From Mytilus galloprovincialis (lineage: Eukaryota; Mollusca; Bivalvia; Mytilida; Mytilidae), in assembly GCF_965363235.1 (NCBI RefSeq), contig NC_134840.1, positions 84,850,916-84,914,915 on the forward strand: a stretch of 64,000 nt of DNA. The letters are read 5' to 3'. The position numbers and the translations under genes are program-made. The number at the start of each line of letters is the position of its first letter. Within the stretch, counting starts at the first letter, position 1. Below are positions 1,826 through 60,500 of the stretch, in pieces. The notes beneath the pieces are model-generated. The model was not told the origin of the DNA and searched no databases. It saw nothing but the letters and a program-made list of their open reading frames with translations.

Positions 1826-3440
1826 ACACTGCAAACTGCTCAGGGTCTAAATTGACCAGTTTTTGTGCTCGACCAGTAAAATCGAGTAAGCATTTTACTC
1901 GACTAGTCTCGAAATTGTCTCGACTGTACTTAACTGTACTTAAGTGTATTCGACTAGGTCTCGACTTTACTTAATTAGTCGGATTCAGTACTTGACAAAG
2001 ACTCGACCTGTCTCGACCAGTCTCAACCTGTCTCGACTAGTCTTGACCTTCAAATTTAGTTTTAACTGGTGTAAATCAGCCCATCTAACTAAATTAAATA
2101 TTGATCTTACAAACTTGAAGCTTATTTGGAAGTTTGATTTAGGATTTGCAATTTGGACAAAATAGATAGTACACTTTAATTTTTTTAATAACTTTTTCAA
2201 ATCAACTTGGATTTTCATCAAACTATGCAGCTATCTTAGATATATATATTAAGCTTACTGAATCCCAGGTCTTTTTGTTTTTGGTGTATTACTGTAAAAT
2301 TTAAGAATTACATTAATCTTGGGCAAAAAAGCTAGGATTTGCAATTCGGACAAAATAGAGGTCATTTTGTTTCTCATAAACATGTTTAACCCCGCCGCAT
2401 TTTTGCGCCTGTCCCAAGTCAGGAGCCTCTGGCCTTTATTAGTCTTGTATTTTTTTAATTTTAGTTTCTTGTGTACAATTCGGACATTAGTATGGCGTTC
2501 ATTATCACTGAACTAGTATATATTTGTTTAGGGGCCAGCCGAAGGACGCCTTCGGGTGCGGGAATGTCTCGCTACATTGAAGACCTGTTAGTGACCTTCT
2601 GCTGTTGTTTTTTCTATGGTCGGATTGTTGTCTCTTTGACACATTCCCCATTTCCATTCTCAATTTTATCTCTATTTTGTCCGAATTGCAAATCCTAGCT
2701 TTTTTTACCAAGATTATTTTAATTCTTAAATTTTACAGCAAAACAACAAAAAACAAAATGACCTGGGATTCAGTAAGCTTAATATATATCTAAGATAGCT
2801 GCTTAGCTTGATGAAAATCAAAGTTGATTTGAAAAAAAAGTTATTAAGAAAATTAAAGTGTACTATCTCTATTTTGTCCAAATTGCAAATCCTAGCTTTT
2901 TTTAACCAAGATTAATTTAATTCTTAAATTTTACAGCAACACAACAAAAAAAAAATGACCTGGGATTCAGTAAGCGTAATAAATATCTAGGATAGCTGGA
3001 TAGTGTGATGAAAATCCAAGTTGATTTGAAAAAGTTATTAACAAAATTAAAGATGCCTATCTGAATTCATATAACCATTTTTATTTTTCCTATTGTAAAA
3101 TTAAATTCTTTCTTTTCACAGCAATAAATCAAACTACCAAATAAGCTTGGATTTTGTGAGATCAATATTTAATTTCAGTTAGATGGCATGATTTACACCA
3201 GTCAAAACTAAATTTAAAGGTCAAGACTATTCGAGACATGTCGAGACTGGTCGAGACTGGTCAAGTCTTGGTCAAGTCCTGAATCAGACTAATTAAGCAA
3301 AGTCGAGACTTAGTCGAGTACACTTGAGTACATTTAAGTACAGTCGAAACAATGTCGAGACTAGTCGAGTAAAAGGTGTGCTCGCATTTACTGGTCGAGC
3401 ACAAAAACTGGTCAATTCAGACTCTGAGCAGTTTGTAGTG
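1826..3440. mobile_element. Foldback element with about 270-bp inverted arms
   Basis: The left arm (1826 to about 2096) and right arm (about 3172-3440) are inverted copies. Both carry CACT(G/A)CAAACTGCTCAG at the outer end, then 'gaccagtttttgtgctcgaccagt', then a block dense in GTCGAG/CTCGAC motifs. Inverted similarity continues inward through sub-blocks marked by 'ggatttgcaattcggacaaa'. One sub-block of about 195 bp is duplicated on the right side (about 2675-2870 and 2872-3060). A different repeat occupies the centre (2381-2676). No transposase is visible. Transcribed RNA would fold into a long hairpin. Confidence 0.8.
2381..2676 (+). repeat. Interspersed repeat, family B, nested in foldback
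   Basis: This block reappears inverted at 46684-46985. Shared strings include 'cctgtcccaagtcaggagcctctgg', an 'actagtatatat' stretch and an 'acattccccatttc' end. It sits between the foldback arms, so it was either the element's centre or inserted there. The 'cccaagtcaggagcct' start is shared with family A at 57030, which hints that the two families exchange modules. Confidence 0.7.
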
Positions 3441-10862: not shown

Positions 10863-12074
10863 AAACAAATTTACAACGATGAAACATAGTTTAGCATGTA
10901 ACAACTTTGGATATCCATATAAATAGCTTCTTCTACAAAATTTTTACATTTTAAACGAATATTTTAAATAAAAACTCATCAATGAAGTGCCCAGTTACGA
11001 TAAATGATCCAATCAAATTATGTAAACACTATATCTGTATTTGCAAAATAAAAAGTGAGACACAGCCGTTGATTTTCTTGTGAGACGGACATTAAAAAAG
11101 GTAAAATTGAATAATTTAGGAAATTGTGGATACGAAAGTAAGACTATGACGACAGCAGTTGCAAAATATACACATTACGTTTTGAAATACTTTTTCTTCT
11201 TCATTATATTCCAAATGCTTATTTTAGGAGTTTTTGGAGGAGGTGCATGGGGATAAGGTGCATATATAATTGATCATATTCAAGAAAGGAAAAGTTCTTT
11301 TGTATATATGTTTGTTGACACGAAAATGTGATACGAAATCAGTAATAATAATTATAACGGCAATAATCCTTATCACACACATCTCTCCTTATGCTAAATG
11401 AAACGTCAACTCCGCTCGATCAGTTGAAAACACATGGGTAATATATCGAAGGACAATGGGACGGATTGTGAATATGCCAAATTAAACATATCCGTCGTCA
11501 TCTGTAAATGTGATTTTTTTTTATTAGAACAGCATAAATAATTCACAGAATGAAATATATTTTGTTGATAATACTTTATGATCTTTATGGATTCGTAAAA
11601 AATGAAAAAATAATCATGCTAAAAGAACTTTGTTTAGTACATGCTCTGGTTCAACAATTTTCAGAAGATTATAAATTTTCAGAACCTCGTGTTAAGAAAT
11701 TTAAGTGTAGAATGGTGATAAGGGAAATGTATTTAGTTTTCTTTCGTAACAACGACACTATTCAAATTCGCTGTTATCGTCCTTGCTTGTAGTGCTTTAC
11801 TCAGATGGTTACGTGACATTCTACCAAATCAATACAGAAAACAGGTCAATTCAGATAAAACAGATAAAAGTTTAATCAATAGACGTACTGCACTTCCTTT
11901 GGACGTTGGTGGATAGTTGTCTCATTGGCAATACTACCGAATCTCCTTGTTTTTATATATTGATATCATACAAACCTAATTAAGCTCCTGAATTATTTGT
12001 ATTTGGATTCTTAAAGAACATCTAAAAATCCTACTTAGTTGCGATTTAAAACAAAATGGGATGAAATTTGAAAT
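10863..12074. other. Upstream region of TRIM-like copy 2
   Basis: No gene is supported; the 80-codon open frame at 11550-11792 has no recognisable features. About 240 bp before the start codon of copy 2, 11831-11870 (AAATCAATACAGAAAACAGG then 'attcagataa') resembles 31309-31350 upstream of copy 5. This suggests a shared 5' flank, possibly 5' UTR or promoter. Confidence 0.5.
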
Positions 12075-13778
12075 ATGGCGAGTAAATATGCAAACTGTCA
12101 GTTTTGTGAAGAATCAGATAGCGTAAAATGGTATTGTCATTCATGTGATATAAACCTGTGTGATGCATGCAACACAAAAATCCATACAAAACTTGAAGAA
12201 TTATCTGAGCACAAGGTTGTACTTTCAGAACAGGGAGAAATTAATGAAGTTTCGGAAAACATTACTAAAGTGGACTTGAAAAAGATTGGATGTTCAAAAC
12301 ATATGGATCAGAAATGTGTAACATACTGTCTAAATTGCGATAAATCATTGTGTTCCTCTTGTTTAATCCAACCATTTCAGTATGAGCAACTAAACAAAGT
12401 ATACGAAGAAAAATATTTTCTACTGAAAGATTTAAAAAGTAAAATTGACGAGTGCTATCCTTTCTTTGAAGAAAAAGCAGATGACTTTAGAAAAATGGAT
12501 GATGGCGAGGTCGCTAAACATAACGAAATAAAAGAGAAAATTTATAATAGGAAAAATGAAGTGAAAGATTTCGTATCACAGGAAGCTTTAAAGCTTGAAG
12601 AATTTCTGAAAGAGATATGGGACACAGAAAATAATCCAGTTATAACAGAACGCAAAAGGCTTTGTCAAATAGAGCAAGAACTAAGAGCTCGAAAAAACAT
12701 TATTGACGAAGTGATAGAAAAACAAAAGCCGGATTCCGTTTTCTCTATTGTAGAAAACATCAGCAGAGATATACCAGAAGAATCAACTTTAGATATACAG
12801 CCTCCAGATTTTATTTATATTGAGGGCAAAGAGAGATTCACGACAGAAGTCTTGGGATCAGTTATAAAAATACCGGAAGTAGTTTTGGTTCAGACATTTG
12901 AAGTAAAATCTTTCAACATAAGCGGACTAGTGTCTCTTAATGATGACATATGTGTTATGCATAGTACCTCTGCTAACAAATTTAAGTATTTCACCATATC
13001 CGGTTCAAAGTTTGTTACTGTTAAAGACATAACAGATAATAAATTCGGTTTTTACAAAGAAGTAGATACGACCAACTATAAAGGAGAAATTGTGCTGTCA
13101 AATATGACACTTATAAAGGATAGTGGCAAATTAGAAAACCTATCATTGTCGTTTACAAGCGATAAACTGAACTTTCATGGCATCCATTCTGATAACTATT
13201 ATACATTTACCGTAGGCTTTACGCATGAAATACTCAGCAAAGATAGACGTAAAACGGAATCTGCTGGAATCCTTGAATTAGAAATCAATCATCGTAACGA
13301 AATATGCAAGAAGAGACGAATTGAATGGAATAGTAGTGAATTTAAAACATTAATTACACTCCCGGAAAAGATCACTACAAGCATCAATGGTTATATTTAT
13401 GTAATAGACCGTCTGAATTCAAAAAGGAGAAGAGTTGTAGCGATAGAGAAATGGGGGCAACCAAAGTGGAAATACAACGGTCATTCAAGCATAAATTCAG
13501 GAAATGATTTTTCTCCAAATGACATTATCACAACACCTTCTGGTCTGGTTCTGGTAGCTGAGAAAAACACAAATGCCATTCATGTCCTATCAAAGAATGG
13601 ACAATTCATTTGTAATTGTATTTCGGGAAGTGGAATTACTGAACCAGGTAGCCTTTGCTTTAACAAAAACGGACAGTTAATGATCGGTTCAAGTACAAAA
13701 GGACAATTAAATGCCGGTTATTCCATTTTTGGAGATTCGGGAGATTCAAGTTTGCATATTGTAAAATTTATTGAATGA
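12075..13778 (+). CDS. TRIM-like B-box/coiled-coil/NHL-like protein, copy 2 (intact)
   Basis: Intronless frame of 567 aa. B-box 1 ligands are C8, C11, C21, C24, C29, C32, H37 and H46. The second zinc module is C73, H76, C85, C88, C93, C96 but lacks the last two histidines of a standard B-box 2. No RING precedes them. A coiled coil spans roughly residues 105-235. The C-terminal third resembles NHL-type propeller blades (PNDIITTPSGLVLVAEK, HVLSKNGQFICN, CFNKNGQLMIGS). The start has A at -3 and G at +4, and all copies begin MAS or similar. AATAAA lies at 13807-13812. Bivalve TRIM-NHL-type families are expanded and often discussed in innate immunity; the role of this protein is unknown. Without a RING, ubiquitin ligase activity cannot be assumed; scaffolding or partnering with a RING protein is possible. 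It has about 11 extra residues before the C-terminus compared with its sisters. Confidence 0.9.
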   Translation: MASKYANCQFCEESDSVKWYCHSCDINLCDACNTKIHTKLEELSEHKVVLSEQGEINEVSENITKVDLKKIGCSKHMDQKCVTYCLNCDKSLCSSCLIQPFQYEQLNKVYEEKYFLLKDLKSKIDECYPFFEEKADDFRKMDDGEVAKHNEIKEKIYNRKNEVKDFVSQEALKLEEFLKEIWDTENNPVITERKRLCQIEQELRARKNIIDEVIEKQKPDSVFSIVENISRDIPEESTLDIQPPDFIYIEGKERFTTEVLGSVIKIPEVVLVQTFEVKSFNISGLVSLNDDICVMHSTSANKFKYFTISGSKFVTVKDITDNKFGFYKEVDTTNYKGEIVLSNMTLIKDSGKLENLSLSFTSDKLNFHGIHSDNYYTFTVGFTHEILSKDRRKTESAGILELEINHRNEICKKRRIEWNSSEFKTLITLPEKITTSINGYIYVIDRLNSKRRRVVAIEKWGQPKWKYNGHSSINSGNDFSPNDIITTPSGLVLVAEKNTNAIHVLSKNGQFICNCISGSGITEPGSLCFNKNGQLMIGSSTKGQLNAGYSIFGDSGDSSLHIVKFIE

Positions 13779-24372: not shown

Positions 24373-27022
24373 TTAAATCATGTGAACAGGGCAAGGAGAA
24401 ATTGATCGGCCCAGAGAAACTGTTGTGTGCCCTTATTGACTTGGCTACTACTATAGAGTGTGGATGGTCTTCAGAATCAGGGACAATTGTGCAAAAAAAA
24501 ATAAAAAATGCTTTGTGGTATATAGACCACATCCACCAAAGACTGCAATTTACTGTGAAATATGTCAAAATCCTACTATCAAAATAAAATCTATTCGATA
24601 TCAAAAATTTATTCATTCCCAGAGTGTATCTTACACTTCACAGTAGAAATTAGTTTTGATGAGAACACATATCCTTCTGTTCGAAGCACAGATCATAATA
24701 TAACAATAAGGAGATGTAGTAAATTGCCAATAAGACAACTATCCACCAAAATTCAAAAGAAGTAGATGTAAGCAATTATAGGCAACCAAACATTCTTAAA
24801 CCATGAGAAAATCCCATGTTTTGTTTAGGACCTTTCCAGAATAAATTGTATGGGGGGAGGAAGGCACCTGTATTAAAATTTGATGGGTGGTGGTTATTTA
24901 AGAAAGATTGCTTGAACATTTAAATGAAATATCCAATTTAAAATGTATGCATGGTGGGGTCAAATAAAAAGTGCCTTCCTCCACCCTACATTCATGACAT
25001 TTATTTTTGGAACATCCCTTGGTGGAATTTAATTAAACCTCAAACATTGTCAAAAAAGGCTTCTCACTAAAAAGTTACAAACTGAAAGTATCAATTTAAT
25101 AATTGTCATGTGTTTTGCATGCTCTTTACATTTGTGAAGGTCATTTGTATTGCCATTTCTAAGTCACATTTAAGAGGGTTTTTTTTTCAAATATTTGCAT
25201 GCTACAAGGTGAGAGAGTCTACAGTTGTTTGCTTAGAGTCAGAATAATGTATTCAAATGGGATAACAGGCCTTATTCATCAAAACATCAGTGCTTTTCCT
25301 TCTTATTCTGTTTGATAAACATACTAGCATGTATCACTTTAAAACAAAAAGATATCGATCGCTCCTCTTGCAGGCCACTCGCCTGTCTAAAACTCATTTT
25401 CAATAATTTTTTAAAAACTAAAAAAAAAAAATTCGTTCGCTCGCCCCATTTTTTCTAGAGCAAATGTCCGAAGAACTATTTATCAAATTGGTGTGGCCTA
25501 ATGTTGTACTTTTACAAAACGTAGAAAATATTGAAGAATTGGAGAATCAATGACAATTCGATTTGACGGGGATATCATGTACGAAACATATGGATCATAA
25601 GTTTGAAAGTTACTGTCTAAATTGCAATAAACCTTTATGCTCATCTTTTATAATCCGACCATTTCAGTATGAAGAATTAAAAAAAAAAGTACGAGTAGAA
25701 ATCCATTATACTCAAAGATTTAAAACGTGAAATTGACGAATGTCATTCATTTTTTTTAAAAGAAAGCAGCCGAATTCCAAAAAATGGATGATTGTGAGGT
25801 TACAAAACACAATGATATAAAAGAGAAAATTTGCAATAGGAAAAACGAAATAAAAGATGCAGTAACAAAGGAATTGTTGAACCTCATATGCGTTATGGAA
25901 GGTATATGTGATACGAAAAACAATCCATTACTTACAGAACTCGAAAGACTTTCACAGATAGAGCAAGAGTTAAAGTCGAGAAAGAATACACTTGACGAAG
26001 TATTAGAAACAAAAGAACTAGCTTCAGTTTTCTCAACAGTAGAAAAGATTAAGAGAGACATTCCAGAGAAAGCATATTTAAAAATTCAGCCACCAGAACT
26101 CGTTTACATTGAACCAAAGAAGAAAATTATGAAAGAAGTCTTTGGGTCAGTAATAAGGTTACCTAAAATATCTTTAGTTCACTCATTTAACGTGTTTTTC
26201 CTCGAGATAAGTGGACTACTGTTCCTTACTGATGATATTTGTGTTATGTATAGTGATAACTCTGGCCTGTTTAAGTATTTCACAATATCAGGTTCTAAGT
26301 TCGTAACTACAAAAGACATACAAGATGAGAGTAGAAAATGTTATAGAAATTTTCAAAAGATTACAGATATAACAAACTATAATGGAGAAATATTATTGCC
26401 AGATATGAGGCTCCTCCAAAGTACTGGCACATTTAAAACATTATCAGTCCTGTTTATACGTGATGAGCTAAAGTACACTTGTATTCATTCTTCTAATCGC
26501 AATGAAATTATCGTCGGTTTTACTAATTATGGAGGATCTGCTGGAATTGTTGAACTATGTAATATTGGTTGCAGTTACGAAATAGATAAGACAATGAGAC
26601 GAGTTGAATGCGATATCGAAAGTTACAAAGCTTTATTTCAGCTACCAGAAAAGATTGCTACAATTGGCAATTGGTTTATTTGTGTAATTGCCCGTCTGAA
26701 GTCAGGAAAATCAAGAGTTGTAGTAATTGGAAAATGGGGGGAACCAAAATGGACATACTCTGGTCACCCAAGTATTAATTCAGTAACTGAGTTTTCTCCG
26801 AATGACATCACTACAACTTCGTCAGGCCTGGTTCTTGTGGCAGAGAAAGGCACAAATGCAAATCATGTCCTATCAGAGGAAGGGCAATTCATCTGTAATC
26901 TTATTTCAGGCAGTGTGATAACTAATCCAGTTAGTATATGTTCTGACAAAAAGGGACAGTTAATGATAGGGTGTGCAGAGCCTAAGAAAACCAAGTTGCA
27001 TATAGTCAAATTAATGGTGTGA

Positions 27023-27889: not shown

Positions 27890-30300
27890 GAAGTCCCTAG
27901 GGGTTGTTGTTGCTGCTGCTACTGCTCCTGTATATCATATTGCTAAATATACTGATGGTACTTGTCTACCGTATACATAATGGTGGAATTTTTGACATCC
28001 AAAAACAATTATAGCCAAAGTTTCTTTCTCGATTTGAGCATATCTTTGTTGAGTTGGAGTAAGTGCTCTCGATCCATAAGCAATAGGCTTGTCATTTTGG
28101 AGTAACACAGCACCTAAGCCTTTTGAACTAGCATCAACGTTCAATGTTAGTGGCTGTTTTGGATCATAGTAGGATAGAATAGGCGCATAAGTGGCCATGT
28201 CTTTAAGTTTATTAAAACTAGTGTCTTGTTCTTTTTCCCAACACCACTCATTCTTTTCTTCTAAAAGTACTCTCAATGGAGCACTGACATCTGACATAGT
28301 TGACAGAAATTTACTGAGATATGTAAAAAAAACAAGAAATGTTTGCAATTCTTTCTTGTTTTCTTGTTTTCTGGCTTTTTCATCTTCTGGACTGCACGCA
28401 CCTTTTCAGTGTCTGGTTTCAAGCCATCTTTACTGATAATGTGTCCAACATAGTCAACTTCATTTTTTTGGAACTGACATTTTGAATAACTTTGTTTTAA
28501 ATTGCATTGTCTTGCTCGATCTAAAACTTTTTTCAGTCTCTCATCATGTTCTTGGATTGTTGATCCCCATATCAGTATATCATCAACAATAACTTCTGCT
28601 CCTTCAATGTTTTTCATTATTTCTGTCATAACTCGTTGGAACATTTCCGGAATTGACTTAATTCCAAAGGGACCTCTTAAGAAGCGATATCTCCCAAACG
28701 GTGTGTTAAAACATGTCAGTTTGCTGCTATCTTCATCTAGTTTGAGATGCCAAAATCCTGACGTTGCATCAATTTGACTAAATACTTTAGCATTCGGGGT
28801 ATTAGCTACTACTTCTTCTACAGTTTTCATAGGGTAGTGTTCCCTACTAATCGCTTTATTTAAGTCCTTCGGATCAATGCATATTCTTACATCTCCATTT
28901 GACTTCACTACAGTTACCATACTGTTGACCCATGCAGTCGGTTCTTTCTGTCTAACGATTACTCCTAGTTTCATCATTCGGTCTAGTTCAATTTTGATTC
29001 TACCTTTCAGTGAAACTGGCACCTTCCTTGGTGGGTGTACTACAGGGTTACTACTATCGTCTACATGTATTTTATGTATTCCAGGTAATCATCCAAGTCC
29101 AGTAAATAAATCTGAATATTTGGCTTCTAAGGAATACACTCTTTTGATTAAGCCTACTTCTGAGCATGTCACAGCTCCAAATACTGATTGTGATTTTGTA
29201 TTCGCAACATAAAATTCTACTTCATATTTCTGGTTTTTTAATGTAACTGGTAAAGTTATTTTGCCATCACATTCTATGTTGTGTCCTGAGAATGATTTCA
29301 ATCTAGAATCTGGTTTGCTTAATACATTATTTGTCTTCATGCGTCTAACATATGTACGATTCAGCTAGAACATTACACCGTGCACCGGTGTCAAGTTGAA
29401 AATTAATACTGACATTTTCAACTGTGATATCTTCACACCATGTGTCACTCTCAGTTTTTTCATTGTAGAGTGCACCAACAAATAATGTATCTGAGTGACT
29501 TGAGTCATAGTAATTAGAACATTCTTCTCGGTCTATCTCGTGTACCTTTTTTTCTTTTCTGGTTTTGCACATTTTAGCAAAATGATCTTTCTTATCACAC
29601 TTTTTGCATTGTTTACCTTTGGCTGTGGAAATACGTGTATTTTGATTTATCTTGTTTATATCTAGGTTTAGCACCTTGTTCATATTTGTGCAGATAACTG
29701 TTTATTTGAGGTTTTTTTCGTATATTTTCATTCTGTTTATACTGTTCACCAATCTTCATTGTTTTTAATTTTCTTGAGAAAGCTCATAAGTTCTTGCTAT
29801 ATCTAAGGCTTTTTCTAATGTAAGATCTGATCCTTCATTAATTAATTTTTCTCTAACTTTAGATGATTTTGTTCCAAAAACAATCCTGTCTCTGACCATT
29901 ATATCGGGGTTTGCATACTGACAATCTTTTACCAAAACTTTTAGATCTGTTACAAATTCTTCGCAAGTTTCATTTGTTTTTTGTAGTTTACATTGGAATT
30001 TATAGCTTGAGAAAACTTGGTTGGATTTGGGTTTAACATATAAAGCTTCAAAGTTTTCATAATATTTTTCAAGTTTTTTCTGGTCTTCTGCCGTCATATC
30101 CCAAGTACTGTAAACATTCTAGCCCTTTTCGCCAACCCATATCATAAGATAAGCGCATTTCTCGTCTCCCTGTTTCTTTTTTAACGGCCCTTGGAACATA
30201 AATTCGCAATGCGTTTTAAATGCTTTCCAGGTGCCTGGGAGGTCCCCACTGTCCCAGTTCATACAGAGTGTTCTACCGTTTATACCGTCTGCCATTTCAC
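27890..30300 (-). mobile_element. Ty3/Gypsy-type LTR retrotransposon fossil
   Basis: On the minus strand, from right to left, parts of a retroelement polyprotein can be recognised. They are a gag-like region (about 30.3-29.7 kb), a CCHC-type zinc knuckle and a protease region with an LDTGA motif (about 29.7-29.3 kb), a reverse transcriptase of Ty3/Gypsy type with a VDDI catalytic box (about 29.0-28.3 kb), and the start of the RNase H region (about 28.3-27.9 kb). Integrase and long terminal repeats are not seen. The element is broken, with several interruptions (about four or more) and truncated at least at its 3' end. The still readable domains suggest moderate age. It lies opposite to the TRIM-like genes. 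Confidence 0.9.
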
Positions 30301-31476
30301 CTCGATGCGTTCATTTGACACAAATCTAAGTGTTTATACTAATGACTAGATTTTTCGACTTCTTCTAGGTCTTTATTTCATGATTTTAGTGGACTGACAT
30401 CTGACACCATATCATATAACTCAGTGCAGCACGGTAGATATGTTTAATGACTTCACATAAGAGAGTACAACATACAGATCCATCTGATAACCCAATACAA
30501 TGTAAGACCAATTACATGAAAACATCTACTTAATTTCAAATTTGATAGATATTGGTGATATTTGTCGAAATTAGATAATGAATCAAACAATAACCATTAT
30601 TAATCAAATACAATAAGAATTGCATGGATTGTGTATAAAAAAAATAATTAAATCACAAAAATACTGAACTCAAGGAAAATTCGAAAGGCGAAGTCCCTAA
30701 TTACATGGTTTAAACTATTGATCTTCGTAATAACATAACAAAAATAAAATCGGAATGTGAGTATATTTAGCTCATCTGGCCCAGAGGGTCAAGTGATGAG
30801 AAAAGCTCACTTGGTCGTCTGTCGTCCGTCGTCGTGTGTTAACTTTTACAAAAAAAGTTTTATGTTTTATTTTGAAACCTGTTTTAAATACAGAAATAGC
30901 ACAAATATTCAGAGTGTTGAGCTCTATCAGTTGTATCTTTCATCAAAACTGTCAGACGACTGCTTATAGGACTTATTTCACATAAAGGACAGATTTTATC
31001 ATTTTTTTCCCCATTTTTGCCTATTATCTTGAAAACTATAATAGATAGAGAGAAACTTTAAACTACAAAAATGATTACTAAGACACTTATTATACCATTT
31101 ATTCGGAGCAAGTGGCAAAAGAACAACACCACACCAAACATAAAATCACTGAATGAACTATATGTGTTAAGTTTAATCACAGTTCACATTTAGCATGGTT
31201 ATAAGTTAAATTTATCTTATTTCATTTGATCAAAATGACAATATCTTACTTCAATTTAAACAACTTTATCTACAATGTTTGACGCAAGTGCATTAAATGG
31301 GATTTTATCAAATCAATAAAGAACACAGGGAGATTTAGATAAGACATACACAATATATTAAACGTATAGATACCAGACAGAAGTGTTTATGAACTAGCTC
31401 GTGAATAGAATGTTTCTCTAAAATATTACTCTAACATAAAAGCAAAAAAAGAAAATAAATAACGAACCTCTGAAAA
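30301..31476. other. 5' flank of TRIM-like copy 5 with repeat scraps
   Basis: No gene. A 'aaatcacaaaaatactgaactca' repeat piece lies at 30650-30715 (also near 33885, 35615, 36895 and, inverted, 43490-43555). A piece at 30766-30870 ('agctcatctggccc', 'gtcgtccgtcgtcg') is shared with the right end of 41151-42110. Near 31232-31350 is sequence resembling the upstream regions of copies 2, 4 and 7. Confidence 0.6.
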
Positions 31477-33231
31477 ATGGCTAGCAAATATGTTAACTGT
31501 CAATTTTGTGAAGGATCTGCGGATGTGAATTGGCATTGCCAGTCGTGTGATCTATATCTTTGTGATGAGTGCAATAAAAACATTCATACTAAAATTGAAA
31601 AAAAAATGGAACACAAGGTCGAGCTGCTCAAAGATGGAGAAAGCATTAATGAATTAGAAAATCTACGAAAAGTGAACTTGAAGGAGATTGCATGTTCGAA
31701 ACACATGGATCAGAAATGTGTAACATATTGTCTTAATTGCGACAAATCCCTTTGTGCCTCTTGTTTAATCCGACCATTTCAGTATGAGAAACTTAACAAA
31801 GTGTACGAAGACAAATATCTTCTATTGACAGATTTAAAAAGTAAAATTGACGATTGTTATCCATTCTTCGAGGAGAAAGCGGCAGATTTTCGGAAAAGGG
31901 ACGATGATGAGGTCGATAAACACAACAAAGTTACTGAGGAAATTTTCAATAGGAAAAATGAAGTAAAGGATGCAGTTACAAAGGAAGCGTCAGCACTAGT
32001 AGAAGTTATGAAAAGTATATGGGATACGGACAGTAATCCAGTTAAATCAGAACGTGAACGGCTTTGTCAAGTGGAACAAGATTTAAAGGCCCGAAAAAAT
32101 TTACTTGATAAAGTGACACTAACTCAAGAGCCTGCTTTAGTTTTCTCCTCTGCCGAAAACATCAATAGGGATATACCAGAGAAATCCTTCTTGGAAGAAA
32201 AACCACCAGAACTGTTTTATATCAAACCAATTGAGAAACCAATAGATGATATGAAAAATGTATTGGGATCAATAATCCGAAAACCTAAAATAAATTTGCT
32301 TAAGGTGTTTAAAGTGGATTTTCCAGAGATCAATGGATTAGTGTCTCTTAATGAGGACATATGTGTTATGTTTAACAAAGATAATCGCAGATTCAAGTAT
32401 TTCACAATATCTGACTTTAAGTTTATAACCGTTAAAAATGATATAAAAGATGTAAGTACAAAAGAAAGATATGGTTCCGTGAAGATCTTTGATATAACAA
32501 ACTATAAAGAAGAAATTTTAGTGTCAGATGACACATTTCAACTAAGACGTCTTAAAAATGATGGAACATTTCAGAAAGTAGCACCGTCCATTACAATAGA
32601 TCAACTGAGCTTTTATGGCATTCATGCTGTAAATGACAAAGACATTTTTGTTGGTTTTACCAATCGACAAGGATATTCCTCTGGATTTCTTGAACTTATC
32701 AATTTTTGCGATTCGGAGATGAGACGTGTTGAATGTGGTAGAAGCAGTAACAAAAGGTTATTTGGCCTTCCAAAAAAGATAACTACAGACATCAACGGAG
32801 ATATTTATGTGATTGATCAGTTAGATTGTTCTCAAAGAGTTGTATCGGTTGGAACATGGGGACAATTAAAATGGATTTACAATGGCCATCAAAGCCTTAA
32901 TCCAGTATCAACAGCAGAAAAAGAAGAAGTACAAGTAGAAGAAGATGCAATGAGTGAATTTACATTTGGTTTAACAGCACAAGGACATAAAGAAGGCGAC
33001 TTTGTTCCCAATGACATTGTGACAACACCTTCAGGCCTGGTTCTTGTGTCTGAGAAAACCACAAACGCAATACATGTTCTTTCTAAGAATGGACAATTTA
33101 TCTGTAATTGTTTATCAGATAGTGTAATAATTGGGCCTACTAGTTTATGTTTTAACAAAAAGGGACAGTTAATGATTGGTTGTTCAGATTCTAGAAAAAC
33201 AAAGTTGCATGTTGTGGAATTCATTGAATGA
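31477..33231 (+). CDS. TRIM-like B-box/coiled-coil/NHL-like protein, copy 5 (intact)
   Basis: Intronless 584-aa frame with the family layout. B-box 1 begins CQFCEGSADVNWHCQSC. The second zinc module CSKHMDQKC...CLNCDKSLCASC lacks the last histidine pair. The coiled coil is at about residues 105-235 and the propeller at 250-584. It is the longest copy because of an insertion of about 26 residues near nt 32905-32998 (acidic, EKEEVQVEEDAMSE) between two propeller strands, before the conserved FVPNDIVTTPSG blade. The start MASKYVN has A at -3 and G at +4; AATAAA is at 33278-33283. There is no signal peptide or membrane segment, so a cytosolic or nuclear place is likely. Function is unknown; see the family comment at copy 2. 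It lies between pseudogene copies 4 and 6 and may be one of three still active members. Confidence 0.9.
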   Translation: MASKYVNCQFCEGSADVNWHCQSCDLYLCDECNKNIHTKIEKKMEHKVELLKDGESINELENLRKVNLKEIACSKHMDQKCVTYCLNCDKSLCASCLIRPFQYEKLNKVYEDKYLLLTDLKSKIDDCYPFFEEKAADFRKRDDDEVDKHNKVTEEIFNRKNEVKDAVTKEASALVEVMKSIWDTDSNPVKSERERLCQVEQDLKARKNLLDKVTLTQEPALVFSSAENINRDIPEKSFLEEKPPELFYIKPIEKPIDDMKNVLGSIIRKPKINLLKVFKVDFPEINGLVSLNEDICVMFNKDNRRFKYFTISDFKFITVKNDIKDVSTKERYGSVKIFDITNYKEEILVSDDTFQLRRLKNDGTFQKVAPSITIDQLSFYGIHAVNDKDIFVGFTNRQGYSSGFLELINFCDSEMRRVECGRSSNKRLFGLPKKITTDINGDIYVIDQLDCSQRVVSVGTWGQLKWIYNGHQSLNPVSTAEKEEVQVEEDAMSEFTFGLTAQGHKEGDFVPNDIVTTPSGLVLVSEKTTNAIHVLSKNGQFICNCLSDSVIIGPTSLCFNKKGQLMIGCSDSRKTKLHVVEFIE

Positions 33232-37170: not shown

Positions 37171-39224
37171 AATTGTTCATGTTGCGCAAATGTAGTATGT
37201 AAATTGATTCAAACAGTGTGGTATCTTGAATTACTACATATCCGTCTTCTCGAGTCAACACCAAATAACTTTCAAATTATAAAAATCAAATGTAAGTGTC
37301 GTTGGCTTAATGTCTAATTGACGTTTAACACAGAATAGAGTATACAATCATGACCCAGTTAAACTCTTGTGTGCTGTCTCATCATAATGCAATAGTTTGC
37401 CTTCCTCTAGAAACATGACATTTTTAATGTTATTTTAGGGGTTTTACTTTAAAAAAAAAAAAAAAAAAAAAAAGGCTTTTCTGACAATCAAACCTATTGT
37501 ATCATTCTTATATCATAAACAGAAATGGCATGAATCGGACCAAAATTGTTTTAATTTGTCTTGCTATATGACGCTGAGAAACTAATAGTTGTATAAAGCT
37601 TGTTTCAGAAATGCATAAATGTCAACTCTATTTGACCTTAATTATTCTTAACCGTTAAAATATATAACGTCAGAGTACTTAAATTGCACCTATTCAAAAG
37701 ATTCGCTGCGAAAACTTACAAGTGTTCTTTGAGACTTAATGATATGTTTTATCATGATTGGACATTACACACGTCTTCAACAATGGTAAATATATTTAAA
37801 TATACGCTAAATGGTCCCAATATATATCAACAAATGAAGCATTCATAGAAAAAAGTAAAATCTACGAAAACGTCATCTTTAAAAACTTAGCAAATTAAAT
37901 TTTTACAAACATCTATTCTTTAAAAAACTTGAAAGAAAGCATGGACTAATGTCAAATTGTTCTACATATTTGAAGAAATAAAACAAAAACATCTGTTACT
38001 AGCTTTGCATGGATGCAATTTGGACACTCCTCGTTACAGAATTATGGGTCTTTGGAGATCAGTTCAAACCTACTTTTCTATGATTCAGTATGGATTCAAA
38101 ATAAAATTGGTGGAACTATAAATTAGATCTACACATCTACAAAATAAACACAGAATAGAAACTTTTTCTGGTCATAAATAAACGTGGGTGAAAAAACTGT
38201 CGAAATAGGTGCAATTTGGTTAGTGTCACTTCGTTTGAAGTTCTCTCGGGGTTTTTTAAGCATGAATTGTAAATGCTAAACATTTAGATCTGAACTTCTA
38301 TAAATTACCGTTGCCCCTAATATAATATATTTGTCATATATAAATTAAATGTACTTGCTGTGGATTCGTTTATTTCAATGAAATAGCACCCTCGTTTGCA
38401 AACATGTATTTTTTGTTTTGGTTTATAGATGTTGAAACGGAACAACAGGTAAACAGTTACATGTACCTATTGGAAGGTGCCAAGCATTTTTTTTGTGTTG
38501 CTTTATGTGAACATTGAAATATAAAAAGTTATGTTAACAAACGATTTTTTCTTTACAAATACCGTCCCGATCTGGTTGTGTAGATTTAAAATAAAAAGCT
38601 GATATTTGCAAATTTCCATAACTCATTTAATTAATAACAAATGCATTGTTTGTTTTTCCTGTAAACAACATTTCATTGTTTTCTCAGTTTATTAACATAT
38701 GAGGGCTTGACATCAAGGTTAATGACCTAATATTTTTAATGTTGTTTAATAGCACAAAATAAGGTACACTTTATCCAATTAATAAAATAAAACTGGCTTT
38801 AGTTTGAAGGCAACATAACCACTGATATATTTTAACATCTGCCAAGCAATAACAGATGATAAGCACTCCTTAAATAGTGACTGTCTGTGCAACGGGAAAG
38901 ATTTACAATCGAGTATTTCAATTTGCAATCTATTGAGAATATGTCAGTGATATTTTTAAACGCAGTGCATATCGGTCGACCAGAGAATTTAAATTCTTTT
39001 GTTTTATAACAATTACAATATCTGATTTGACTGTAAAATTAGTTAAATACGTGCATGCTTACTTTGACTTGTATAGAGTCATTGGAGTAAAACAGTAGAT
39101 TTGCCACTAATTTAAATTATAGACAATGAGAGAGAATTTATTTCACAAACTTTTTAAAGTTCTGCACATTTGAATTTTTTATCTTAGTACTTCTATCTGA
39201 TGAACACTGGATAAACATTTAAGA
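37171..39224. other. No gene; 5' flank of TRIM-like copy 7
   Basis: AT-rich. It has a 23-base A-run at about 37451-37473. The stretch 38945-39105 matches the upstream flank of copy 4. No other structure recognised. Confidence 0.55.
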
Positions 39225-40916
39225 ATGGCAAGTCAATATGCAAACTGTCAATTTTGCGAAGAATCAGCTGGAGTAAAATGGTTTTGCCAGTCATGTGATT
39301 TAAATCTTTGCGATGTATGCAATACAAAAATTCACACAAAAATTCATACAAAAATTGAAAAATTGTCTGAGCACAAGGTTATTCCTTTTAAACATGGAGG
39401 TAATATTGACGATTCGGAAAATGAAAGAAAAGTGGACTTGAAGGAGATTGCATGTTCTAATCATATTAGTGAGAAATGTATAACATACTGTCTAAATTGC
39501 GATAAATCTTTATGCTCGTCATGTGTAGTAAGACAATTTCAGTATGTGGAACTTAATAAATTATATGAAGATAAACATCTTTCACTCAAAGACTTAAAAA
39601 GTAAAATTGACGAATGTTACCCATTCTTTGAAGAGAAAGCAACCCTATTCAGAAAAATGGATGATTGTGAGGTCATAAAACACAACGAAATAAAAGAGAA
39701 AATTTGTAATAGGAAAAATGAGGCAAAAGATGTAATAACAAAGGAGGCATCGAATCTTGTAGAAGTTATGGAAGGTATATGGGACCCAGAAAATAACCCA
39801 GTAGTATCAGAACGCAAAAGACTTTCTCTGATAGAACAAGAATTATTGACAAGAAAAAATATGCTTGACGAAGTGTTAGAAACACAGGATCCTGCTTCAG
39901 TTTTCTTAACTGTAGAAAAAATCAGCTGTGAAATGCCACAGAAATCAGCATTAGAAATAAAACCTCAAGAACTGATTCTTCTTGAGCCAACAGAGATTTC
40001 TCTGAAAGAAGTATTGGGATCCGTAATAAGAATACCCAAATTAATACTAATTCGGACATTTGAGGTTGATTTTCCCGAAATAAATGGACTAGTGTCGCTA
40101 AATGATGACATATGTGTTATTTACAACAGTAATTCTCGAAGATTTGTGTTTTTTACAATATCGGGCTTAAAGTTTGTCATTACAAATGATATAATAGACG
40201 TAAGTTTAGAAAGTACATATTCCGCTTATGCTAAGATTTTAGATATAACAAATTATCATGGAGACATCTTACTAACAGATGACAAATTTCAACTTAGGCA
40301 GCTTAAAAAAAATGGACAATTTGAAAACCTGTCATCGTCAATAACGAACGATTATCTCCAGTTTAACGGTATTCATGCAACTGACAATGACGAAATTATT
40401 TTGGGTTTTACTAATAACTCAAGGTCTTCTGCTGGAATTATAGAACTAACTCATATGAAACTCAACATGAGTTACACGCAAGACACAAGCATTATGAGAC
40501 GCGTTGAGGGCAGTAGTAAAGCATTATTTACTCTTCCAAAAAAGATCACTAAAAACATTAATGATTATATGTGTGTGATAGACCAGCCCATGGATTCAGA
40601 CAATGGAAGAGTTGTAGTCATCGGGAAATTTGGAGAGCCTAAATGGATATACCGTGGCCATCCAGACATAAACTCAGAAAATGCATTTTCTCCGAACGAT
40701 ATTCTCACAACATCTTCGGGTCTTGTTCTTGTGGCTGAGAGAAAAACAAATGCAATTCATGTCCTTTCGAAGGATGGGCAATTCATCTGTAATTGTATTG
40801 CAGACAGTGAAATAACTGAACCAGTCAGTATATGTTTGAATAAAAAAGGACAATTAATGATCGGTTGCATGGATTCTGAAAAAACTAAGTTGCAAATAGC
40901 CAATTTCATTGAATGA
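39225..40916 (+). CDS. TRIM-like B-box/coiled-coil/NHL-like protein, copy 7 (intact)
   Basis: Intronless 563-aa frame. B-box 1 (CQFCEESAGVKWFCQSC, CDVCNTKIH) contains a small in-frame duplication giving IHTKIHTKIHTKIEK, which lengthens the spacing to the last histidine. The second zinc module is CSNHISEKC...CLNCDKSLCSSC and lacks the final histidines, as in copies 2 and 5. Coiled coil and propeller follow; the last blade is CLNKKGQLMIGC. Closest relative in the window is pseudogene copy 1 (shared WDPENNPVVSERKR-like text, ETQDPAS, EISLKEVLGSVIRIPKL). Start context is favourable (A at -3, G at +4); AATAAA is at 40958-40963. No signal peptide or membrane helix. Role unknown; immune or developmental TRIM-like function is possible only by family analogy. 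Confidence 0.9.
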   Translation: MASQYANCQFCEESAGVKWFCQSCDLNLCDVCNTKIHTKIHTKIEKLSEHKVIPFKHGGNIDDSENERKVDLKEIACSNHISEKCITYCLNCDKSLCSSCVVRQFQYVELNKLYEDKHLSLKDLKSKIDECYPFFEEKATLFRKMDDCEVIKHNEIKEKICNRKNEAKDVITKEASNLVEVMEGIWDPENNPVVSERKRLSLIEQELLTRKNMLDEVLETQDPASVFLTVEKISCEMPQKSALEIKPQELILLEPTEISLKEVLGSVIRIPKLILIRTFEVDFPEINGLVSLNDDICVIYNSNSRRFVFFTISGLKFVITNDIIDVSLESTYSAYAKILDITNYHGDILLTDDKFQLRQLKKNGQFENLSSSITNDYLQFNGIHATDNDEIILGFTNNSRSSAGIIELTHMKLNMSYTQDTSIMRRVEGSSKALFTLPKKITKNINDYMCVIDQPMDSDNGRVVVIGKFGEPKWIYRGHPDINSENAFSPNDILTTSSGLVLVAERKTNAIHVLSKDGQFICNCIADSEITEPVSICLNKKGQLMIGCMDSEKTKLQIANFIE

Positions 40917-48139: not shown

Positions 48140-48893
48140 GATGTAACTGTTCCAGACCATATGAGTATTTGGACCGTACGCGTACGGTCCGGACCGTATA
48201 CGTATACTCGTACGGTCCGACCATACGCGTACGGTCGGACCGTATGAGTATACGCGTACGGTCCAGCTGATGTTTTGGGATCTTATGGGTTAAATTTAAA
48301 CAAACATTTAACAAAATCTTTATTTTTAGTTATACAAATTGTTATTATTACATGTATATGGATAAAATGATTAAGCGAACAATTGAAATTAAATGTGTGT
48401 TTATTTGTATATCCGTGAATCCTATTTTGGTACTCAAGGTGACACTGACTTCCACAAAGAACGTCATATTTTTTTTATAGTAACATAATTTGTTCATGCA
48501 CGTTCCTAAATATTCTAAAACGATTGTCCTCCCACTCTAAGTTTACTTCCGATAACTTCAATTCCAATGAGCATACTTGGCTTCAATTTATGAATTACTG
48601 ACATGCTAAATACAGGAGATTAACAGATTAAATAAACGTGATTTTTTTAAATAGTTATAATATATTTTTTTTTTATTTCAATTACTATTGTAATTTTTAC
48701 ATTAATTTGAGATATAAGTTATGTTGATCTGTTATATACATTTGTATCTGATAAACGTGACCAACTTCTTAATATTAGTCAGACCGTACGCGTACGGTCC
48801 GACCGTATGCGTATTTTGAAAATGTACGCATACGGTCCAGACCGTACGCGTACGGTCCAAATACTCATACGGTCTGGAACATAACCATTAAAC
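48140..48893. mobile_element. Element with self-complementary CGTACGGTCC-type arms
   Basis: The left arm (48143-48262) and right arm (48780-48893) are inverted. From outside inward both read GTTCCAGACC(A/G)TATGAG, TATTTGGACCGTACGCG, then TACGGTC(C/T)GGACCGTAT. Each arm is also made of short palindromes (CGTACGCGTACG, GGTCCGGACC), so each can fold on itself as well as with the other. The central 500 bp has no coding sequence. A solo arm occurs at 7317-7480. No target duplication could be fixed. Confidence 0.78.
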
Positions 48894-54527: not shown

Positions 54528-57500
54528 TCAGCAGCACCTCTTACGTCCACCATCAGATAGAAGCTGTGATGAATCAGAATGACTATCAAAGTGAGAAGAA
54601 TCTTCATCTAAACTTATACTGGATCTAGATTCAGCTGCTTGCTGTTCTTGTGATTCTATGATGTCTGTACACATATCTAGAAATGCCTGTAAAACAATAT
54701 GGATATATATTTTGTCAGAGTTTTTTTATATCAATGCAACAGCAACCTAACAACACAAAAGTCTCATAAAAATAATTTACAGATCAGCATATAGTCGCTA
54801 ATAATAGACAAATGTATCTAAATTATGCTAAGCTCTTAATTGTATGAAGGTTCTTTGTTACAGAAGTTGTATATAAAGTTAGTAATAAATTCCAAAGAAT
54901 GTCATAAAGACCAAAAACTACAAAAAGGACAATCATTAAATTTAACCATAGGTAACCATTTATGAAGTTCTTGACTGTTTTTTAAATGTGTATTCCGAAA
55001 TTAACATTATAATTGATGGAATCTTAATTAACCACAAATTCATGGATAATAAAATAAATAAAAATAAACTATTTTGAGTTTTATTAGATATACTGAAAAC
55101 TAGTGTATAAAAAAACAAATTTCAAAATATATAGGACCAAAACATATTTCGCTTTATGTTGCTAGTCTAATGGACCTGAAAAATATTCAATTAATTTAAA
55201 TAACTAGAAGATCTATGGAAAGTAAGATTTTTTAAATGACACATAATTTGGTAAGGTCTTAGTGATGAAAGGGTTTTGCTTGTGGTAATATTTTTCTCTT
55301 ATTTTCATTCAAATGTATTGCATTTGACCGACAAATATTGGTTTTTTTAAATTGGACTTAGTTAGTAAATTGGGTTTTGCTTATCATTGAAATCTATCAG
55401 TGATCTATAGTTGTTATTTTCTGTACCATTTGGTCTCTTACAGAGAGTTGTCGCATTGACAATCATACCACATCTTCTTGTTTCTTTATATTATCTGTAT
55501 TACATTCTTACCTTCTCTAGATTGCTACTACTTTTAGCACTTGTTTCGCTAAACATTATCCCATGTTCTTTGGCAAACTAAAAAAAAAGAATAAAAGTTA
55601 TATTTTCTGTAATTATAATTCATTTGACAATAATAAATATCACATTTATTCACATCAACATTGAAAATAAGGTATTTGTTCCATATTAAAAATAATTTTA
55701 TTGTACTTCCTGTGCTTATATTGCCCATTTCTACTGCCTAGTTCTCTTCTATCACAACTTCATGGTGTTAGAGCAGAACTTATCACCAACATCATGATGC
55801 TAGAAAATGTGATAGCAGTATTTTATATCATTACAGATAATTAAAACATATCTAAGGGAGACAAAAAATTATCAAAACTATAAACTGATTATTGGTTTTT
55901 TTAGTATAGATATTGTAAACTATTAGCATCTTGACACAATGTGAAGATTTTCATCTAATTTGTTGCACTTCTCAATACCAAGATTTACTTGTGATTGCTG
56001 ATGATATTGACCTATATAAGAGAGTTTCTAGAATTTTTTAAAACACAACGGGTAAATCAAAATGCACTTTTAAAAAGTTTGCAATACATAACTGGTTTAC
56101 TGGCGTCATATACATTTTTCTCTTACATCCTGGTCTTGTTAATGACCTTGTGGTAAAATATGAAAAGATTGCTTAGTGCTTGGTAATGTTAAAAGAGCGT
56201 GTAGCAGGAATATCAAGACATAATTTTGTAGAAAGACATAATTTTGTAGAGATTAACTCTGTTTTTGTTAGATGCATTTCTCTTTGTACCCATCTGATGA
56301 GTTAAACCTTTTTAAATTGTTTTTTATTGAGCCTTCAACTTTAGTCAAAAAAGCCAGACATAGCAATCCTACATTCCGTCATCGGTGTTGTCGTCGTTGT
56401 CAGCGTCCACAAATATTCACTCTGTGGTTAAAGTTTTTGAAATTTTAATAACTTTCTTAAACTATCCTGGATTTCTACCAAACTTGGACAGAAGCTTGTT
56501 TATGATCACAAGATAGTATCTAGAAGTAAATTTTGTAAAAGAAAATCCTTTTTTTCAGTGTTTTACTTATAAATGGACTTAATAGTTTTTCTGCCTGGAA
56601 ACATTACATTTACTCTGTGGTTAAAGTTATTTTAAAAATTTTTAAAGTTATTAAAATCTTAATAACTTTCTTTTAAAACTATCCTGGATTTGTACAAAAC
56701 TGGGGCAGAAGCTTGTTTATGATCAAAAGCTAGTATCTAGAAGGAAATTTTGTTAAAATTTTGTACCTGTTTTTCCATATTTTACTTATTTTACTTATAA
56801 ACGGACTTAGTTTTTCTACCAGTTAACATTACATACAGTCTGCAGTTTAAGTTTTTACTACATTTATTAGATTCAAAATATGGTCCTGGATTTTTACTAA
56901 ACTTGGACAGATTAGCTTCTTACATATAAAAAGATAGTATAGAGAGAAATAATTTTACTAATTTAACCCCCCCCCCCCCCCCCCCCCACACACACACACA
57001 TTACATATTTACGTACGAATGTGCCTGTCCCAAAGTCAGGAGCCTGTAAGTCCGTGGTTGTCATTTGTTGATATGTTACATACTTGTTTTTTGTTCATTC
57101 TTTGTACATAAATTAGGCTGTTAGTTTTCTCGTTTGAATTGTTTTACATTTGTCATATCGAGGCCTTTTATAGCTGACTATGTGGTATGGGCTTTGCTCA
57201 TTGTTAAAGGCCATATGGTGACCTATAGTTGTTTTAAATTTCTGTGTCATTTGATCCCTTGTAGAGAGTTGTCTTATTGGCAATCATACCACATCTTCTT
57301 TTTTATAATTACCTGAGTAGCTTCTTAGGTTGTGACTTATCTTCTGTCCTCTCAATCACATTTATATAGAGAGTAACTTACCTGACTAGCTTCTTTGGTT
57401 GTGACTTGTCTCCTGTCCTCCCTATCACATTTATATAGAGAGTAACTTACCTGACTAGCTTCTTTGGTTGTGGCTTGTCTTCTGTCCTCTCTATCACATT

Positions 57501-60500
57501 TATATAGAGCGTAACTTACCTGACTAGCTTCTTTGGTTGTGACTTGTCTCCTGTCCTCCCTATCACATTTATATAGAGCGTAACTTACCTGACTAGCTTC
57601 TTTGGTTGTGACTTGTCTCCTGTCCTCTCTATCACATTAATATAGAGAGTAACTTACCTGACTAGCTTCTTTGGTTGTGACTTGTCTCCTGTCCTCCCTA
57701 TCACATTAATATAGAGAGTAACTTACCTGACTAGCTTCTTTGGTTGTGACTTGTCTCCTGTCCTCCCTATCACATTTATATAGAGAGTAACTTACCTGAC
57801 TAGCTTCTTTGGTTGTGACTTGTCTTCTGTCCTCTCTATCACATTAATATAGAGAGTAACTTACCTGACTAGCTTCTTTGGTTGTGACTTGTCTCCTGTC
57901 CTCCCTATCACATTTATATAGAGAGTAACTTACCTGACTAGCTTCTTTGGTTGTGACTTGTCTCCTGTCCTCCCTATCACATTTATATAGAGAGTAACTT
58001 ACCTGACTAGCTTCTTTGGTTGTGACTTGTCTCCTGTCCTCTCTATCACATTTATTTCCAAGTAACATCACACTAACGTCTTCTTTACAAAACTGTGGAA
58101 AAAAGTTTACTTTGACAAAAAGGACAATGATATTAAGAATAAAACCTTTTTAAAGATTTATAATTTATGAAAAACCTAAACTTCAAACATTAATATAATG
58201 TAACTGTAACTGTAATAATTTTCTTGAATGCAAAATCTGAAAAAAAACTTTATACTTGGCTTTTTTTATTATTTTCATTTATTTCATATTTGGTCCATAT
58301 AAAAAAGTGAGCTATGAGAAACATACATTTAATTTATGTACAAATACCTGTTCTACATGGGCTAGCCACTTTGGTATAGCTTCAAATGAGGATCTACTAG
58401 ACATGTCGTAAACTAGTAAAACGCCCTGAAATTAATGAAAATATCCAATGAAACAACTGCAGATCAACTCACTTAATATTTCATACATGTAAAAAGTGGT
58501 CAATTCCTAATCTCTTGTTTCCAATACGCATATCTCTATTAAATCACAAGAGTTAAGGCAATGGAACAATAGTCAAAACTCCAACAAAGTAAAAAGCTTT
58601 AGAGGACATTCTTGATCATCATTTGTGTGTTTGTTGTGCATAAATTATGTCATTACAGAGAGCCAAAGAACAAGTATCTTAATTGAGATTATTTCTATAT
58701 TGCTGCCAATATAAGGTCCGAGAACACAATTATTTCGTAGTGCATTTCTTTTAGAACATAAATGAAAATAAAAAAAATCCCACCTGTGCTTTCTCAAAGA
58801 AACTTTTACAGTGTGTTGTACTACTTTTAGGACAAATTATATCAAAATTATAGAAAACTTCATCGGCGTCTTGAAATCTTTTGACAGCTTCCGAAGTGCT
58901 AATTTTCAACCTTTTTCAGCTGGACCAAATCACTACTTTCCTTTAAAATTCTGGACCCAAATTTTTTTACAGTGTAATTTCACCCCCCTACTTGCAATTT
59001 GAGGCATTAAACATGGAGAAATAAATTTGGAAGGGGTATAAAAATTAATGGCAAGTAACCCACTGTCAACACTAGGGACTATATTTGTGAACAACGAAAA
59101 TCAAGGGACCATAAGTGTGTTCACTTACAAATGTTTTCTTTGTAGAAAGAATTTAACAATGTACATAGAGAAAAACAAAGATACAAGATCAGTTCAAATG
59201 AAACTGTAGGTGAGGTCAAAAAGTCAATGTACCGGCTAAGCAAGACTTTTTTCTGCAATGAAAATGATATGAATCTAGAAAATTGTTGCGCATGTGCATG
59301 ATTACAAAATACAAATGTATAGACAGTGAAGAATGACATATTATTAAAAATATTACCAAAAAGGAAATATACATTTTAAAAATTAATAAGAATTGAGAAA
59401 TCTGTGTCCTGCATGACATGTACATATGTTTTTAACTCATCTTTAATCAAGCTTTCTATGTAAGAATTACCTGTGCACGTCGGTAGAACTGTTTTGTAAT
59501 GGATTCAAATCTTTCTTGTCCAGCAGTATCCCTGTAAAAAACATAGGTCAATGCATGTCATTGTCATAGTCATGTTGCTCATAATGATGAATTGATGGTA
59601 GATTTGTAGGTTTTACCCTTTTTGTCTCGGAAATTTTTTAGAAGGTGTGTATAAAAGGACAGGTTTCTTAAAATCAAAGCAAATATTCAGTTGTCTTTAT
59701 TTTGATTGATTGGTGTTTAATGTTACTTTCAACACTATCATGCTATTTAGCTGTGGTCAGTTTGTATTGGTTGAGAAAGCCTGAGTGCTCGGAGAAAACC
59801 ATCAACCTTGAGTAGGAAAACTCTCAATCCTAGTCAATTAAGATTGGAGTTGAGTGCAACTGCTCCAATTGTCTTTGTTTTGATGCTAGCTTCGAAAATT
59901 CTTAGTTCATAATTGAAGAAGCAACTGCCAAAATGAAAAGCAGTAAAAGTCCTGATTTGTCAATATACTGGTTACTTTTCATACAGAGCTGATTATTTTT
60001 TCATATGTAATATTTTGTTATATGAATTGAGGTTTAAATTGGCATAACATATTTGATGAAAGAAGAAAGACAACTCCAATTTTGCTAATAGTATAAGTTA
60101 TATATTCAGTTTAAAAGTAAAAAGTGTATACTGTAATGTGGATTATGTGTTTTCTTTACTATTGAAATAGAATTTTGTCTCCTTTACATCAATCTCAGAT
60201 TGCTTCTTTTTCAGTTTAAAGTATAAGTACTAGCCTAAGCTACTTACCAGATTTGAACTTTTACTACTCTATCATTAATCTGTAATGTTTTCATCTTGAA
60301 GTCAATACCTTTAAGTAAAAAATAAGGAATCACACAGATTAAAAGAGTTCTTTGAAATATATTTTTATATCACAAAAATTGGTGTCTTCCAATTCCCTTA
60401 CTCTTGTGTACATGTACATTTAAGATAAATAAACTCATTGTACTAAAAGTCACTCAAGGTTACAAGTACATCCCATCAAAATTTGCTTACATGTATTAAC

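Follow-up and report, generated by a model that had tools for sequence, protein, structure and literature searches.

When the end of an exon and its splice donor have been copied many times into the following intron, which of the equal donors defines the exon, and what does the choice do to the protein? Splicing rules disagree on the winner among equal donors, which would be the one nearest across the exon under one rule and the one nearest across the intron under the other. We consider this question for a 64,000-nt stretch of the Mytilus galloprovincialis genome (contig NC_134840.1, positions 84,850,916 to 84,914,915; hereafter, the window), in which a Rab GTPase gene on the minus strand carries a tandem array at the boundary of exon 5 and intron 5. 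Units and donors of the array are numbered from the exon side. With ten identical nine-base donors at 69-nt steps, one acceptor and an in-frame readout in an otherwise normal gene, the array amounts to a natural test of splice-site choice, and length alleles, if existing, would supply a dose series. Our preferred reading, to which we give a probability of about 0.68, is that the array is a young minisatellite and mostly a passenger, with donor 1 dominating and the array leaving with intron 5.

Tandem Repeats Finder detected one array at 57309-58055, with a period of 69, 10.8 copies, 96% matches, 0% indels and a score of 1368. Read on the minus strand, the 69-bp unit joins 51 nt of the exon 5 end (AAATGT...AGTCAG) to 18 nt of the intron 5 start (GTAAGT...TATAT). 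From 58053 downward, ten full units follow each other at exact 69-bp steps, with a diverged and truncated eleventh behind them. The initial annotation of this DNA had described an exon end and its first 18 intron bases repeated about ten times, with nine extra perfect CAG/GTAAGT donors, and both statements hold: CAGGTAAGT occurs ten times in the window, always inside the array and at 69-bp spacing, compared to a mean of 0.42 and a maximum of 2 in 100 shuffled windows. Nine of the ten perfect donors, therefore, lie beyond donor 1, and the eleventh array donor reads CAG/GTAATT. The donor consensus is complementary to U1, and every perfect array donor (n = 10) matches it at 9/9 positions. The array is a minisatellite-sized tandem repeat with an exon end and a donor in each unit, like the 31-bp type in human CBS.

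The host gene reads as complete, with seven coding exons between 63234 and 54528 predicted from the DNA alone (Table 1). Its reading frame is intact across all seven, all six introns have a GT donor and an AG acceptor, and the 639-nt coding sequence yields a 212-aa product that ends in GGRKRCC before the stop and, thus, contains the C-terminal cysteines that are the prenylation sites of Rab proteins. This product matches the Pfam Ras family (PF00071, E = 1e-60) and TIGR00231 small_GTP (E = 4.7e-32). Among the best 60 of 190 distinct matching sequences, its top solved relative is Rab10 (3.3e-60), with Rab8A next; it may belong to the Rab8/10/15 group. The CAG/GTAAGT of exon 5 is the sole 9/9 consensus donor of the gene, the other five scoring 7 or 8. 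The acceptor of exon 6, preceded by 16/17 pyrimidines, would serve every array donor.

We assessed the outcome of each donor by splicing simulation. With a phase-0 intron and a unit of 23 codons, splicing from donor 2 or donor 3 would keep the frame and lengthen the protein by 23 or 46 residues, as the initial annotation had proposed; the simulated proteins measure 212 aa for donor 1, 235 aa for donor 2 and 258 aa for donor 3, and the latter two both keep the normal C-terminus. In-frame TAA codons occur in unit 4 (57846-57844), unit 6 (57708-57706) and unit 7 (57639-57637), and every product of donors 4-11 ends at residue 190, where unit 4 opens with its TAA, which bears out the earlier statement that farther donors read into a TAA. 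For these donors, the stop lies 114-597 nt before the last exon junction, a distance at which nonsense-mediated decay (NMD) is expected by the usual rule. The insert had also been placed next to the GTP-binding loop. It is indeed near the G4 loop in sequence but not within it: the NKCD motif occupies residues 121-124, and the last codon of exon 5 is number 138, 14 residues farther on. The insert point, after Q138, falls within a stretch that aligns to Rab10 without gaps, and an insert there would split what we take to be helix alpha-4. Pfam splits its Ras match to the 235-aa form in two, and the stronger part ends at residue 140, although the score over the whole protein remains high (2e-61 versus 1e-60 for the 212-aa form).

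The choice among these donors can be judged from the work of Carranza et al. 2022 (PMC9225289). That study places the border between intron and exon definition at ~250 nt, reports that the upstream of two near-equal donors is favored when the downstream intron is long, and finds smaller exons preferred. In each of five human minigenes, which paired two identical CAG/guaagu donors with 365-nt introns, splicing went exclusively to the upstream donor. Because the introns flanking exon 5 measure 255 nt (intron 4) and 2,425 nt (intron 5) and the array donors are identical to those of the minigenes, donor 1 is the expected choice by analogy. Later donors would lengthen exon 5 from 90 nt to 159-780 nt, which agrees with the small-exon preference.

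From this we infer donor choice, NMD and a role of the array as largely a passenger. A tandem duplication of a 69-bp segment straddling the 3' end of exon 5 and its donor would have founded the minisatellite, which would then have grown, its units mixed by unequal exchange. U1 should be able to bind any of the ten perfect donors in the pre-mRNA, but exon definition would pair the exon 5 acceptor with the nearest of them, donor 1. Nearly all mRNA would be normal, and the nine extra donors would be removed with intron 5. If donor 2 or 3 were used now and then, the resulting Rab would be 23 or 46 residues longer, and use of donors 4-11 would lead to a premature stop and probable NMD.

The initial annotation had instead proposed a potential length-variable splice switch. 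Under such a switch, donors 1, 2 and 3 would all be used and the number and order of repeats would set the mix of 212-, 235- and 258-aa Rab isoforms. The 23-codon unit, the phase-0 intron, the open units 2 and 3, the restored normal C-terminus and the identity of the donors are consistent with such a switch. However, one unit length in three would be a whole number of codons by chance, identical donors were used upstream-only in exon-defined minigenes (PMC9225289), and the insert would interrupt the ungapped Rab10 match and leaves the Ras match of the 235-aa form in two stretches. Furthermore, no selection was detected on the donor columns. The anatomy given by that annotation is right; the switch is possible but unsupported and, with flanking introns that predict donor 1 and unconserved donor columns, unlikely.

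Several points weigh against dominance of donor 1 and a passenger role. The proximity rule comes from another organism, having been derived in human genes and in transfected cells that offered two donors rather than ten (PMC9225289). Intron 4, at 255 nt, sits at the 250-nt border, although the short/long class of that study also favors the upstream donor. Before strength matching, ~60% of its events favor the downstream donor, which is in the majority in all four architecture classes. SR proteins can shift the choice downstream, as for DOK7 (PMC5585400). Units 2 and 3 are open and identical. Lastly, in the closest precedent, the 31-bp variable-number tandem repeat (VNTR) of CBS, more repeats are reported to lower enzyme activity (PMC5188458, citing Lievers 2001 and calling the sequence non-coding), and exon-donor arrays, therefore, need not be silent.

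The CBS precedent also speaks for a damaging or down-tuning allele, in which downstream donors would often be chosen, most mRNA containing the unit-4 TAA would be degraded and repeat number would tune Rab output. Such an allele would fit two observations: from 8/11 donors the reading frame closes 114-597 nt ahead of the last exon junction, and downstream donors win ~60% of unfiltered human events (PMC9225289). On the other hand, exon definition with equal donors favors donor 1 and short exons are preferred (PMC9225289), while the Rab coding sequence is intact. We regard this explanation as improbable.

The perfect donors might also act without being spliced. The initial annotation had offered a U1-binding array as a further option, which stands as a description of the sequence, with ten sites at 9/9 to the U1 consensus, any effect being hypothetical. 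As a function, nine perfect intronic U1 sites could shield the AATAAA hexamers of intron 5 from premature polyadenylation or speed intron 5 splicing. All four such hexamers lie downstream of the array, and loss of U1 function is described as leading to premature polyadenylation in introns (PMC10404622). Yet AATAAA is common in AT-rich DNA, to which the window belongs, the gene's intron 1 contains five AATAAA but not one CAGGTAAGT, and the donor columns lack conservation beyond chance, which makes a functional U1 array very unlikely.

Recursive removal would keep the mRNA always normal, with each unit's donor splicing to the CAG of the next unit and the donor rebuilt each time as in a ratchet. 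A ratchet point consists of YAG directly followed by GTAAGT, the AG being preceded by a pyrimidine tract. CAG does stand directly before GTAAGT in all ten units, but just 6/17 bases before this CAG are pyrimidines, compared to 10-16/17 at the six real acceptors of the Rab gene, and we find this route barely credible. Recursive splicing and intron gain were both rejected as candidates, the array units having no pyrimidine tract.

Variation among units is informative about array history. Units 1-10 differ at five columns (mean 2.8%), with units 2, 3, 5 and 10 identical. Variants were probably shuffled between units, because in 4/10 pairs of variable columns every one of the four base combinations occurs. 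Unit 11 has 5-7 differences from the other units over 55 positions, which suits an old unit at the edge, beyond the zone of turnover, and the whole would fit the usual picture of a growing minisatellite. An assembly artefact, with a wrong copy number or an array that is itself an assembly error, is highly improbable: a single sequence is at hand and four units are identical, but the units, rather than being exact copies throughout, combine distinct variants as a mosaic and include a diverged edge unit. At its intron-side end, the array meets an interspersed repeat with 9 further matching stretches in the window, for example, 428-692 and 55371-55483. This repeat has a recurrent end (AAGAAGATGTGGTATGATTGCCAAT), and another copy begins ~30 bases past Rab exon 6. 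Near the unit ends we also noted an 8-bp inverted repeat of exon bases ATAGAGAG (58046-58039, minus strand) and intron bases CTCTCTAT (57994-57987, minus strand). Such a repeat was reached by 38/20,000 shuffles, yet by 71/9,005 other 69-bp stretches of the window, and a part for it in forming the duplication is speculation. Predicted RNA folds of two array stretches were no stronger than those of shuffles (z = -0.97 and -0.74).

The same variation was used to look for selection. None of the five variable columns of units 1-10 falls within the nine donor columns, an outcome with P = 0.49 by chance and, hence, no evidence of donor conservation among these units. In-frame stops are over-represented, at 4/9 distinct changes versus 13/207 possible changes of unit 1 (P = 0.0015). 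Each distinct change was counted once in the frame of exon 5; the nine comprise the five columns in units 1-10 and four changes private to unit 11, which was counted up to column 55, the interspersed repeat starting at column 56. Stops arise from a change at unit column 1, present in units 4, 6 and 7, and from three changes in unit 11 alone. With the consensus as background, the expectation is 12/207 (P = 0.0011), and simulation with the observed base changes gave 0.00075; on this background, the change at unit 11 column 10 is not a stop, as it makes one only beside A at column 12. The test was conceived post hoc and rests on four changes, making the excess a hint at most, which either selection against long inserts or chance could produce. 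Given the in-frame stops in units 4, 6, 7 and 11, long inserts are not maintained. These stops could also belong to a length-variable buffer of splicing errors, in which the identical donors would compete, donor 1 would yield the normal Rab, donors 2 and 3 would leak variants with the segment behind the G4 motif present in one or two additional copies, the stops in units 4, 6, 7 and 11 would send longer products to NMD, selection would cap the insert at two units and repeat number would tune output; we rate such a buffer as quite improbable.

Table 1 Features of the Rab gene and its exon-donor array, in window coordinates
Feature	Positions	Strand	Basis
Rab exon 1 (coding part), starts MSKRYDLLLRLLLVGETGVGKT..., P-loop	63111..63234	-	sequence, splicing simulation
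Rab exon 2	60248..60308	-	sequence, splicing simulation
Rab exon 3, DTAGQERF	59471..59531	-	sequence, splicing simulation
Rab exon 4	58348..58425	-	sequence, splicing simulation
Rab exon 5 as ended by donor 1 (FCKEDVSVMLLGNKCDREDRRQVTTKEASQ), then phase-0 intron	58003..58092	-	sequence, splicing simulation
Array unit 1: last 51 nt of exon 5 and first 18 nt of intron 5; donor 1 at 58003/58002	57985..58053	-	
Array units 2 and 3, of the same sequence and with an open frame; donors at 57934/57933 and 57865/57864	57847..57984	-	
Array units 4-10, a perfect donor in each	57364..57846	-	
Array unit 11, diverged and truncated; in-frame TGA, TAA, TAA; donor CAG/GTAATT	57309..57363	-	
Interspersed repeat at the intron-side end of the array; limits approximate, first bases perhaps unit 11	57018..57312	-	
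Rab exon 6 (FAKEHGIMFSETSAK...)	55512..55577	-	sequence, splicing simulation
Rab exon 7, end ...GGRKRCC stop	54528..54686	-	sequence, splicing simulation

Beyond the Rab gene, the window contains three long single-frame open reading frames on the plus strand with B-box zinc fingers (Pfam zf-B_box), at 31474-33228, 12072-13775 and 39204-40913. Related pieces were seen by eye near 4-6 kb, 17-20 kb, 25.8-27 kb and 36 kb, which suggests a tandem TRIM-like family; the piece at 25760-27019 had no Pfam family match. A reverse transcriptase domain (RVT_1, 1.1e-23) lies at 28276-29088 on the minus strand, with further retrotransposon-like reading frames recognized by eye at ~27.9-30.3 kb, among which the piece at 29768-30118 had no Pfam family match. 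Other repeats comprise tandem, palindrome-like repeats around GTACGCGTACGGTCC at 48172-48858 and a 197-bp unit in two tandem copies with 91% matches at 2667-3052. Searches of the window returned 0 Rfam matches at gathering scores and 0 tRNA or tmRNA genes.

Donor usage in this gene would bear on whether minisatellites at exon boundaries, of the kind found in human CBS, have consequences outside humans. In the matches listed from open-licence papers, judged by titles and abstract starts, human CBS was the sole other case of an exon-donor array. Viral contigs contain no exact copy of a 35-base core of the unit, a result of little weight for a eukaryotic gene. Intron gain by tandem duplication under the AGGT model also involves a duplicated segment containing AG/GT (PMC4974935); in contrast to that model, the Rab units have no plausible 3' splice site (6/17 pyrimidines), so no new intron is expected from them. 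TERT VNTR6-1 is likewise an intronic minisatellite, one that affects splicing, but its proposed action is through G-quadruplexes, ~3.5 kb from the affected exon, and the excerpt of that paper makes no mention of donor copies (PMC11830802). The minigenes of PMC9225289 resemble the Rab array in their identical CAG/guaagu donors behind one acceptor and flanking introns of >250 nt; they are designed constructs with two donors and 365-nt introns in transfected cells, whereas the array is natural, has ten perfect donors and belongs to another organism. CBS 844ins68 is a 68-bp tandem duplication of an intron/exon junction that creates two competing splice sites and still yields normal mRNA (PMC2630376), which speaks for the passenger reading. 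It shares the duplicated junction with competing sites but has a single extra copy at intron 7/exon 8, the more distal copy being used, and not ten 5' splice sites; the text of PMC2630376 speaks of donor sites, the title of its Romano 2002 reference of a 3' splice site. The CBS 31-bp VNTR, c.1444_1467+7(16_21), located at exon 13-intron 13 (PMC1395315), has a unit of 24 exon plus 7 intron bases, repeated 16-21 times (PMC2630376). As in the Rab array, its unit is an exon end plus donor, present in many copies with single-base variants among units (PMC2630376). The CBS VNTR is shown to vary among people. Its 31-bp unit is not divisible by three, while the Rab array has a unit of 51 + 18 nt, is in frame and belongs to a Rab gene. 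The kind of element is, therefore, already known from human CBS, and the Rab case adds an in-frame, ten-fold design.

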